In this document: positions 14,023 to 22,658 of the stretch, piece after piece
How positions within the stretch are numbered: position 1 is the first letter of the stretch
Layout: every line of letters begins with the position of its first letter
DNA from: a virus
Length of the DNA: 23,775 nucleotides
IMG/VR virus record: IMGVR_UViG_3300018083_000111
Span: 1 to 23,775 of that record
Reading direction: 5' to 3' (one strand)
Program-made: the position numbers and the translations under genes
Notes under the pieces: model-generated
Told to the model about the DNA's origin: nothing
The model's database searches: none
Seen by the model: the letters and a program-made list of their open reading frames with translations, nothing else

Positions 14023-14316
14023 ATGAGCGTAGGACTACCCGTTACAAAAAACGAAATCGACAGCCGTGCAGGAGATATTGCGCGCGCGTTCCAGGACCAG
14101 TTTAACGACGTCGCAACGATGCAAGGGTTCCTGGTCGCGACGCCGAACGGCGATCTAGAAACCCTAGGCTACACGCCAGACGAAGTCGCGTCGTTAAAGA
14201 CGGCGTTTACCGACCTGGCGCAACTAGGGACGATTTGGACAGGCCAGGCCGCATTAGCGACCGCGAAGGATTTTCGTACGTTCGTTCGGCGCCTGTGGGG
14301 AGTCGGCGCCTTCTAA
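14023..14316 (+). CDS. Small tail-module protein, unknown function
   Basis: This 97-residue protein is the last gene of the rightward block. It is helical, with VTKNEIDSRAGDIARAFQDQF, an FLVATPNGDLETLGYTPDEV segment and a C-terminal DFRTFVRRLWGVGAF. It starts at ATG 14023 after AAAGGGGA, a good ribosome binding site. Codon use returns to the phage norm after the divergent fibre gene. Position suggests a fibre assembly factor or minor structural protein. I have an impression of similar small proteins following fibre genes in other phages, but cannot name a family. Confidence 0.7.
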   Translation: MSVGLPVTKNEIDSRAGDIARAFQDQFNDVATMQGFLVATPNGDLETLGYTPDEVASLKTAFTDLAQLGTIWTGQAALATAKDFRTFVRRLWGVGAF

Positions 14317-14328
14317 TCGGCCAGGCAT

Positions 14329-14361
14329 AAAAAAACGGCGCTAGGGTTTAACTGGCGCCGT
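14329..14361 (-). terminator. Rho-independent terminator for leftward transcripts
   Basis: ACGGCGC (14335-14341) pairs with GCGCCGT (14355-14361). Read on the - strand, the stem is followed at once by seven T residues (the A run 14329-14335 on the + strand, one base of which belongs to the stem). It lies between the convergent gene blocks, 24 bases beyond the stop of the last leftward gene. There is no T run on the + strand side, so it would stop leftward transcripts best. Confidence 0.8.
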
Positions 14362-14385
14362 CGGTCGGCCGCGCGCGGTTCGGGG

Positions 14386-14637
14386 TTAGGCCTGGCGCGG
14401 TCGGGTTCGCCCGTTGGCCTGCGCCGTTAACGTCGACGCAGGAACGGCCGCCTTACGCGGTCGGCCGCCTTTGGCGCCGTTCGCCCTGGCCGCCTGGATT
14501 TGCCACAATTTTTCCTGCGCCCGTTCTAGGGCGGCGAATTGTTTCGGTTCCAGGTCGTCGCAGTCGCCAGCTAATTTGGCGCCGATAGCTTCGGCGATCG
14601 CGTCCAATTCGGCGGCCGTAAACCGTGGGCGCGTCAT
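14386..14637 (-). CDS. Small DNA-binding-like protein with RANGAKGGRPRK tail
   Basis: This 83-residue protein begins MTRPRFTAAELDAIAEAIGA and continues with a helical part (PKQFAALERAQEKLWQIQAA), then RANGAKGGRPRKAAVPAS and a basic Arg/Thr end. GGRPRK resembles an AT-hook-like DNA minor-groove contact. Its ATG overlaps the stop of the upstream gene as ATGA (14634-14637), so translation is coupled. The 43-bp DNA segment coding for the GRPRK region is identical to that at the end of the upstream gene. Function unknown; a regulator or nucleoid-associated accessory protein is plausible. Confidence 0.65.
   Translation of the reverse strand: MTRPRFTAAELDAIAEAIGAKLAGDCDDLEPKQFAALERAQEKLWQIQAARANGAKGGRPRKAAVPASTLTAQANGRTRPRQA
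14447..14489. repeat. 43-bp direct repeat, copy 1
   Basis: These 43 bases are identical to 14641-14683, 194 bp away. The segment lies inside the 83-residue gene and codes on the - strand for the RANGAKGGRPRKAA region. Identity over all 43 bases, including third codon positions, points to recent duplication or gene conversion. Confidence 0.85.
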
Positions 14638-20603: not shown

Positions 20604-21107
20604 ATGACCGACGACCGCGACGCATGGGCGAAGTACGCCGAACGCGAAGGCCTAATAAAGGCCGACGACGAACGGTGTACCTGTCCACGGTTTTATCACG
20701 GTAGCGTTCCGACTAGCGCCTATGGATGCGCCGTTCATTTTCCTAATAAGGCGGCGCCCACGAATAAATTCCACGCGGTACCCGTTCATATCGACGGTAT
20801 ACGGTTCGCTAGTACAAAAGAGGCGGCGCGATTCTTAGAACTACGATTAATGGAAAAAACCGGCCTTATCGCCGACCTGGAAACGCAACCACTTTTCCCA
20901 CTTCATATTTTCGCCTTATGGCGATCGCAATTACCAATTCAGATCGTGACGGTCGGCGTTTATCGCGCCGACTTTAGGTATATAGATTTAAAAACAGGCG
21001 AAATCGTTATTGAAGATACAAAAAGTCCAGCGACGCGAACAGAGGCGTATGTATTAAGGAAAAAATTAGTTGAAGTAATACACGGCGTCCATATTCGTGA
21101 ATTGTAA
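20604..21107 (+). CDS. DUF1064-like nuclease-fold protein with Cys-rich N-terminus
   Basis: This 167-residue protein matches the pattern of DUF1064 phage proteins. Visible marks are NKFHAVPVHIDGIRFASTKE, AARFLELRLMEKTGLIADLE and the later YRADFRYIDLKTGEIVIEDT followed by KSPATRTEAYVLRKKLVEV. The Glu of STKEAARF, the Asp of ADFRY and the (V)IEDTKS segment fit a PD-(D/E)XK-like active site. A role in recombination or Holliday junction processing has been suggested for this family; that is inference here. Residues 20-45 (RCTCPRFYHG, YGCAVHF) add a possible zinc site not needed for DUF1064. GC falls toward the 3' end, just before the GG array. Confidence 0.78.
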   Translation: MTDDRDAWAKYAEREGLIKADDERCTCPRFYHGSVPTSAYGCAVHFPNKAAPTNKFHAVPVHIDGIRFASTKEAARFLELRLMEKTGLIADLETQPLFPLHIFALWRSQLPIQIVTVGVYRADFRYIDLKTGEIVIEDTKSPATRTEAYVLRKKLVEVIHGVHIREL

Positions 21108-21112
21108 AACGT

Positions 21113-21354
21113 GGCAAGGTCGGATCTGGCGAGTTTTGGTCGGCGTTGGTCTGGTGAGGCAAGGTCGTTGCGGGTCTGGTTTAGGTGAGGCGATGTGAGG
21201 CATGGTGAGGCGCGGTTAGGGTGCGGGCCGGTTCGGTTACGGCAGGGTTCGTCGGGTAACGGCGTGGCACGGTCCGGTAAGGCGTGGTGAGTCGAGAGTA
21301 AGGAACGGTTCGGTTAGGTATGGTCGGGTCAGGTGGGTAATGGTTCGGCGTGGT
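21113..21354 (+). repeat. Degenerate GGYNN pentamer array 1
   Basis: From the end of the DUF1064 gene to just before the ribosome binding site of the next gene, a GG doublet recurs every 5 bases on the + strand. Doublets start, for example, at 21148, 21153, 21158 and 21163; then at 21204, 21209, 21214 and 21219; then at 21261, 21266, 21271, 21276, 21281 and 21286; then in an unbroken series from 21302 to 21352. Phase slips by one base occur only about four times in roughly 48 units. The base after GG is nearly always T or C; other positions vary. No coding frame fits. The RNA would be G/U-rich and weakly structured. Confidence 0.85.
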
Positions 21355-21382
21355 TTGTTTTTACACAAAAGGATGGTGACGA

Positions 21383-22000
21383 ATGACGACAGTAACGGCG
21401 ATCGGTCCGGAAGTCACGAATGGCGCGAAGGCGATTATTGAATCTGGCGTTCCCTATGGCGCCGAAGTATCAATAGTCGGCGCGTCCGATTTCCTATTTC
21501 ACCGTTGGAATTGCGAAGCGGTCGAAGCGAAGGGAAAAGCGGCGAAGGGAAGTAAAGCGAAAAAGTCGGACGATATAGAAAGTTACGTCTATCGCGACGA
21601 CCACGGGTTACTCGCGATACCAGGCGAGTACTTACGCCAGTCAGTAATTAACGCCGCGAAATTCCGACAGGATCCATGTAGTCCGCGCAAGTCGGCGATG
21701 GATCTATTTAAGGCCGGTATTGTGTCGCTAACGCCGTTGGCGTCATTAGGCGTCGCAGGTTGGGATTACGAACATAAATGCCGAGTAACCGTACAACGAA
21801 ACGGTATTACTCGCGTTCGGCCTGCGATGAAAGTAGGTTGGACGGTTACGTTTCTATTTATGGTTAATCTTCCTGAATACATCCCGCCAGACGTATTACA
21901 GGACGTCGTCGTCAACGCAGGACGACTTGTGGGAATAGGTGATTCCCGTCCAACCTACGGCCGATTCCAAGTATCGCATTTCGACCTAACTGGATTGTAA
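21383..22000 (+). CDS. Unknown 205-aa protein, possibly RAMP/RRM-like, between GG arrays
   Basis: ATG 21383 follows AAAAGGATGGTGA, a good ribosome binding site. The N-terminal part has VSIVGASDFLFHRWNCEAVE, then a very basic loop (AKGKAAKGSKAKK, 49-61). The middle has YRDDHGLLAIPGEYLRQSVI followed by NAAKFRQDPCSPRKSAMDLF. The C-terminus has GRLVGIGDSRPTYGRFQVSH (180-199). That last glycine-rich loop before a strand resembles the G-rich loop of RAMP/Cas7-type and related RRM-fold nucleic-acid-binding proteins, but this is pattern recognition only. No Cas genes or CRISPR array are present. Location beside a nuclease-like gene suggests a single-strand DNA- or RNA-binding role in replication or recombination. 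Confidence 0.6.
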   Translation: MTTVTAIGPEVTNGAKAIIESGVPYGAEVSIVGASDFLFHRWNCEAVEAKGKAAKGSKAKKSDDIESYVYRDDHGLLAIPGEYLRQSVINAAKFRQDPCSPRKSAMDLFKAGIVSLTPLASLGVAGWDYEHKCRVTVQRNGITRVRPAMKVGWTVTFLFMVNLPEYIPPDVLQDVVVNAGRLVGIGDSRPTYGRFQVSHFDLTGL

Positions 22001-22003
22001 TAC

Positions 22004-22229
22004 GGCGGGTTGTGGTCCGGTTAGGTACGGTTCGCCCTGGACGGTTAAGGCCTGGCGTGGCATGTCCAGATTTGGTAAGGCGAGTCGAGTAAAGGACAGG
22101 TTAGGTCTGGCGCGATACGGTAGGGCGTGATTTGGTTCGGTCGGGTTCGTCTCGTCAGGGTCAGGCGTAGCAAGGGTATGGCGTGTTGACTGGTCAGGTC
22201 GGGTCAGGTCCGGCATGGTGAGGTATGGC
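22004..22229 (+). repeat. Degenerate GGYNN pentamer array 2
   Basis: This array starts 4 bases after the stop of the 205-aa gene and runs into the start codon of the zinc-ribbon gene (ATGG at 22225-22228 is in phase). GG doublets fall every 5 bases, for example at 22014, 22019, 22024 and 22029; 22094, 22099, 22104 and 22109; and 22192, 22197, 22202, 22207, 22212, 22217, 22222 and 22227. It has the same strand, the same GGYNN form and some of the same longer words (GGTCGGGTCAGGT) as array 1, but it is not a copy of it. Confidence 0.85.
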
Positions 22230-22335
22230 TATTACCTGTCCACACTGCGGCGAAACGCGACTAATCGAACAAATAGGCCAGATTTGGTTTTGTTCGGTGT
22301 GCGGTCGAACCTGGAATTGGGTTAAACGGAAATGA
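22225..22335 (+). CDS. Zinc-ribbon micro-protein, 36 aa
   Basis: ATG 22225 begins at the end of GG array 2 and the TGA (22333-22335) overlaps the HNH start as ATGA. The product reads MAITCPHCGETRLIEQIGQI, then WFCSVCGRTWNWVKRK. Two CxxC knuckles (CPHC, CSVC) 15 residues apart with aromatic residues are a textbook zinc ribbon of the kind in transcription factors. The upstream AGGTATGG provides a possible ribosome binding site that overlaps the array. It may regulate transcription or assist the HNH protein. Confidence 0.8.
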   Translation: MAITCPHCGETRLIEQIGQIWFCSVCGRTWNWVKRK

Positions 22336-22658
22336 ATTACTGTCCTGAGCCAGGATGCGGCGCGATCGTGCAACGCGGTCGCTGTACCGCCCATACCAGG
22401 AATAACAGGAATACGAACGCGTACGCCAAGGTCGTACACGCCTGGTACTGTTCGAAACGTTGGCAGCGAATACGCGAAGGCGTTATACGCGCCGATCCGT
22501 TCTGTCGACAATGTATCGCGCGCGGCCTGCGGGTTCTAACCGTCGACGTCGACCATATACGGCCGCATAAGGGCGATCCGTACCTGTTCTGGAACCTGGA
22601 AAATTTACAGGGATTGTGTAAGGCCTGCCATAGTCGGAAAACGACCGCAGGAGAATAA
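22332..22658 (+). CDS. HNH endonuclease
   Basis: This 108-residue protein has a complete HNH core: FCRQC (57-61), then VDVDHIRPHKGDPYLFWNLE (71-90) with the metal-binding D74/H75, then NLQGLCKACHSRKT (91-104). C58, C61, C96 and C99 form the structural zinc site and H100 is the last HNH residue. The N-terminus has an extra Cys cluster (CPEPGCG, RCTAHT). Small HNH proteins of this type act with terminase at cos cleavage in HK97-like phages, and this one lies close to the probable packaging end. The start overlaps the zinc-ribbon stop. Confidence 0.9.
   Translation: MNYCPEPGCGAIVQRGRCTAHTRNNRNTNAYAKVVHAWYCSKRWQRIREGVIRADPFCRQCIARGLRVLTVDVDHIRPHKGDPYLFWNLENLQGLCKACHSRKTTAGE

Follow-up and report, generated by a model that had tools for sequence, protein, structure and literature searches.

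VIPR consists of a phage-encoded RAMP protein, Vipr, and guide RNAs built of alternating GGY and NN motifs (PMC13142463, bioRxiv 2026.04.26.720920). The NN pairs recognise double-stranded DNA with one target base skipped between pairs; the skips fall at codon wobble positions, and the targets lie in rival phages and include other VIPR systems (PMC13142463). For the system of Escherichia phage SUSP1, which is of type II among types I-VII, the evidence presented comprises RNA sequencing, pull-down of the RNP, binding to DNA, repression of GFP and defence against phages, and an accessory gene, vap, "typically" accompanies VIPR (PMC13142463).

The locus studied here lies in a 23,775-nucleotide stretch of viral DNA (IMG/VR record IMGVR_UViG_3300018083_000111), referred to below as the window. 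This virus contig carries terminase, portal, capsid/protease and integrase genes; it is a temperate tailed phage, and the locus is thus encoded by a phage or provirus. The surrounding genes belong to recombination and replication, and the features of the locus are the following:

20604 to 21107, + strand: DUF1064 / Holliday-junction-resolvase-like gene, context upstream of array 1
21110 to 21357, + strand: GGYNN array 1, a putative vrRNA-type guide array of about 48 units upstream of vipr, located by autocorrelation and a five-state HMM
21383 to 22000, + strand: vipr gene for the 205-aa RAMP/Cas7-like Vipr, assigned by PDB profile match, hhalign, AlphaFold2 and Foldseek
22001 to 22231, + strand: GGYNN array 2, a putative vrRNA-type guide array of about 45 units downstream of vipr, located by autocorrelation and a five-state HMM
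22225 to 22335, + strand: 36-aa zinc-ribbon-like ORF with two CxxC motifs, context, starting in the last units of array 2
22332 to 22658, + strand: HNH endonuclease gene, context

We interpret this as a VIPR locus made up of Vipr and two guide-RNA arrays, with a probability of roughly 95%.

A preliminary description of the window had reported GG every five bases in two + strand arrays, and autocorrelation against shuffled sequence bears this out. At lag 5 the GG count was 27 against 9.2 expected in array 1 (z 6.6) and 21 against 6.6 expected in array 2 (z 6.2), values reached by 0 of 1000 dinucleotide shuffles, and GG autocorrelation was also raised at lags 10, 15, 20 and 25 in both arrays. 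The next-best 200-base stretch of the window, around 14201-14500, had 7 lag-5 pairs against 24. The faint signal there comes from GC-rich DNA at and after the end of a coding region, and the HMM makes no call in it. The arrays run unbroken and, as had been described, occupy the spaces flanking the 205-aa gene. The HMM counts about 48 units in array 1 and about 45 in array 2, with a few slips of 6-7 bases; the 36-aa ORF at 22225 begins within the final unit of array 2. Strict GGYNN was found in 66% of the units of array 1 and 63% of those of array 2. Position 1 was G in 97% of units, position 2 was G in 78%, position 3 was a pyrimidine in 91% and positions 4-5 were free, percentages that are biased towards GGY because the HMM presumes it, whereas the autocorrelation is free of such bias. 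The earlier statement that all positions other than GG drift was therefore wrong, since the third position is constrained too. The two arrays have in common a stretch that departs from the canonical unit and is alike in both, GAGTCGAG(A)GTAA(A)GGA (window 21288-21308 and 22081-22098); it may be a boundary mark or chance.

The RNA of the arrays folded no better than shuffled sequence (z -0.01 and -1.4), and a structured-RNA reading was therefore dropped. Rfam gave zero matches for the window, nine related loci and two inter-array regions, the latter at relaxed thresholds. No sigma-70 promoter match was found at the window arrays, and no 3' tail was seen between or after them.

A profile of the 205-aa protein, built from 50 homologues, matched one relevant chain in the PDB, SUSP1 Vipr (36pp_D, E 8.6e-10), and hhalign aligned the two proteins over 160 columns with 97.7% probability and 28% identity. 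The AlphaFold2 model had a mean pLDDT of 89. When this model was submitted to Foldseek, the top 50 PDB matches were all Cas7-type CRISPR effector subunits or effectors (Csm, type VII, Cmr, Cas7-11), among them a Csm subunit at E 7e-7 and a TM of about 0.55. A family for the protein was not found in Pfam or NCBIfam, and in PHROGs it falls into the unnamed family phrog_4652. Judged by its model, the product is a RAMP protein with the Cas7 fold, and by sequence comparison it is a homologue of SUSP1 Vipr; a single RRM core would follow from its size and homology.

The window and SUSP1 both have a phage-encoded RAMP-fold Vipr of about 200 aa and GGY/NN pentanucleotide guides up- and downstream of vipr on its strand; the window's clade further shares with SUSP1 the one-base-skip code, a preference for skipping at wobble positions and targets in other phages. 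SUSP1 differs in its guides, four separate ones of about 11-16 units that each carry a structured 3' tail, whereas the window has two unbroken arrays; in addition, the two Vipr proteins are only 28% identical in the hhalign alignment, and a vap1 homologue was not recognised in the window. Guides of 9-16 repeats with an invariable structured 3' tail, which describe the type II systems studied and not all VIPR, do not apply to the window, whose arrays are continuous and show no visible tail.

Cas7 subunits polymerise on guide RNA. The Cas7 proteins of class 1 CRISPR systems (Csm3, type VII Cas7, Cas7-11) have the same fold as the window Vipr; those systems have repeats and cas genes and pair 5 of 6 bases, whereas the window has a 5-base unit whose pairing would be non-contiguous. 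No CRISPR direct repeats were found in the window and no cas genes among its scanned proteins, so that the direct-repeat array and the Cas5, Cas6 and Cas1 of a class 1 CRISPR-Cas system are missing.

RNA expression, RNP assembly, DNA binding and repression are expected of the window VIPR by homology to the SUSP1 work. Both GGYNN arrays would be transcribed as guide RNA(s), and Vipr subunits would line the RNA, one per 5-base unit, with GGY held and NN exposed. The exposed NN pairs would then base-pair with the double-stranded DNA of a competing phage, one target base being skipped between pairs, and the bound gene would be repressed.

A search with the 205-aa protein collected 80 loci from IMG/VR, 31 loci from bacterial genomes and one from a phage isolate record (L-numbers below denote loci in this set). 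Members of the clade come from viral contigs as well as from bacterial assemblies, the latter of Planctomycetota, Cyanobacteria, Proteobacteria and Bacillota. The expectation that homologous loci should carry arrays held: nearly all of about 110 loci have + strand period-5 arrays beside vipr. The HMM found arrays in 109 of 114 sequences; of the 299 arrays, 296 share the strand of vipr and 3 lie opposite to it. As a positive control it was run on the SUSP1 locus, where it found exactly four arrays, one upstream and three downstream, matching the published vrRNAs; as a negative control, 807 kb of phage DNA that had been retrieved with unrelated patterns yielded none. Downstream of vipr in L049 and L022 a weaker period-5 pattern was seen with another consensus by eye (GGNTN-like in L049), and the GGY detector gave little or nothing beside vipr in these two loci. 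The relatives' loci adjoin DUF669-like, AAA-ATPase and helicase-like genes, and neighbour comparison revealed no accessory gene common to the clade.

The NN pairs change fast. Among close relatives, for the most part 86-96% identical in vipr, NN identity was 64-66% against 92-97% for GG, a comparison made in other clade relatives since the window vipr has a single near relative, L001, at 82% identity. The proposal that GG spacing is selected was borne out.

We tested the code by taking every eight-unit run of all arrays and searching for its NN string in all loci, on both strands with arrays masked, with 0, 1, 2 or 3 free bases between NN pairs; reversed, complemented and unit-shuffled strings served as further controls. 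A skip of one base gave 252 eight-unit seed matches, extending to 28 matched bases, whereas skips of 0, 2 and 3 and the reversed, complemented and shuffled strings gave 1-5 matches each. At a score of at least 18, skip 1 retained 187 matches, contributed by 19 distinct arrays, whereas no control kept more than 3, and those came from a single array. Many skip-1 matches represent one guide against several related phages, and the 19 arrays are the fairer count, although some of these are themselves close relatives. When each of 31 representative sites was assigned to its longest ORF, the skipped base proved to be the third of a codon in 23; the 8 others are probably explained in part by a longest frame on the opposite strand that is not the true gene. 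From the translated ORFs we recognised by eye, as targets, a DUF669-type protein, helicase-like ATPases, a RecD-like helicase, a ParB/methylase-type protein and vipr genes. On these sequence matches, the NN positions of the clade are information, forming a guide that is matched to DNA while one base is skipped between pairs, and not mere drift as had been supposed. The wobble-position code is thus found in the clade, in 19 distinct arrays, and the window's own arrays stand outside this result.

The window vipr gene is itself matched by guides of other loci:

21862 to 21894, - strand: predicted target in window vipr of the L017/L018 array 2 guide, units 6-17, 21/22 NN bases
21559 to 21591, - strand: predicted target in window vipr of the last guide of L058 array 1, 20/22 NN bases

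Matches of at least 20 NN bases to the window vipr numbered 0 in six unit-shuffles and one with skips 0, 2 and 3 together. The L058 guide also matches L047 and L052, in L052 inside vipr. From the L017/L018 and L058 matches, at least two other VIPR phages therefore appear to be armed against the window vipr.

When the window's own arrays were compared with about 1.1 Mb of related loci, no match rose above chance, and seven 8-unit seeds from them gave only chance-like matches in IMG/VR. One candidate target, in L202 (23/24 over 12 units), is probably chance: the skip falls at codon position 1, and by our estimate about 0.1 such matches would arise by chance. In the other direction, a guide of L053/L054 matched a replication-initiation-like gene of the window (16/16, 8 units) at the same level as controls. 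The window arrays may be in use, aimed at unsampled targets, or decaying.

Decay of the whole locus is the alternative that survives best, though we think it unlikely. It would make the arrays a former guide array drifting with no live target, with GG lost in a third of units; the modest proportions of canonical units (66% and 63%) and the failed target searches in related loci and with IMG/VR seeds are consistent with it. Against it, the vipr reading frame is intact and retains almost every conserved residue, the period-5 phase is maintained over 240 bases, and similarly irregular arrays of L017 (72-73%) and L013 (73%) give target matches, those of L013 at control level. Partial decay of the window arrays, in which about a third of the units are imperfect, could nevertheless have occurred.

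Longer arrays than those of the window occur in the clade: 238 units in L020 (up to 1186 bases), 183 in L019 and 149 in L058, and several target-matching guides sit inside such long arrays (L017, L058). Other subclades split their arrays by structured elements, and tail-like elements exist in other clade members. In L060-L076 a structured RNA element of the form CAGCG-[stem]-GCGAT is located behind guide arrays or between them (e.g. L062:5711-5767, L070:5412-5456). It shows pair-keeping changes on both sides in 8 of 18 predicted pairs, had no Rfam match in L062, and probably represents the tail of the vrRNAs in this subclade. Between the arrays of L029, L032, L035, L036 and L038 lies another element, about 80 nt long, GTGTCCGCTG...AGCGATACACGAGAG (e.g. 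L036:2483-2565). Its predicted closed stem with two inner hairpins shows little covariation, no credible Rfam match was obtained in L036 and a hammerhead core was not recognised by eye; the element may act as a tail or in processing. We tentatively raise the idea, which we consider rather doubtful, that the unbroken tail-less arrays of the window and of others in the clade stay uncut and that a long Vipr filament, or many overlapping registers of one transcript, would read the array as a sliding guide. If true, its architecture would set it apart from the vrRNAs studied to date, which are discrete and tailed; it may already be described in part, as the preprint lists other VIPR architectures, including staggered overlapping vrRNAs (PMC13142463).

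Very improbable, by comparison, is a TRAP-like or other RNA-binding track in which only the GG rhythm matters, as in attenuation, a sponge or a packaging signal. TRAP is a multimeric protein that recognises RNA repeats about 5 nt apart; it is a fixed 11-mer ring that binds (G/U)AG, and the intervening bases carry no information. The window arrays resemble TRAP sites in their five-base RNA period and flank a gene for a protein with an RNA-binding fold, and the preliminary description had offered TRAP as the precedent. The window has neither (G/U)AG repeats nor the TRAP fold, which is unrelated to that of the Cas7-like Vipr homologue, Rfam is silent, and NN strings match genes of other phages under one skip rule (252 against 1-5 in controls). 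What stands of the roles then proposed, by homology to Vipr, is a track for an oligomeric protein, whereas the skip-rule matches and the Cas7 fold speak against the origin and the sponge. Equally improbable is an annealing protein acting on the arrays as a single-stranded DNA track, a recombination hot spot or an origin of replication: the locus does sit among recombination and replication genes, and its relatives beside DUF669-like, AAA-ATPase and helicase-like ones, but the protein has a Cas7/RAMP fold and not that of RecT/Rad52, and NN differs between close relatives yet fits other genes when the skip rule is applied. Weak TRF hits in the arrays might speak for chance, low complexity or tandem duplication, but these can be dismissed, as no shuffle reached the lag-5 count, the units differ in NN and the 807 kb of other phage DNA held no array.

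The VIPR reading of the locus matters as VIPR is a proposed CRISPR ancestor with a non-contiguous guide code, for which we found one preprint (2026). The window and its relatives provide an independent confirmation of this code from sequence alone, with strong controls. VIPR as a kind has been known since 2026; what is new here is the window's locus and its unbroken arrays. Guides of the clade are aimed at rival vipr genes and core replication genes, and its very long unbroken arrays pose a concrete question of processing.
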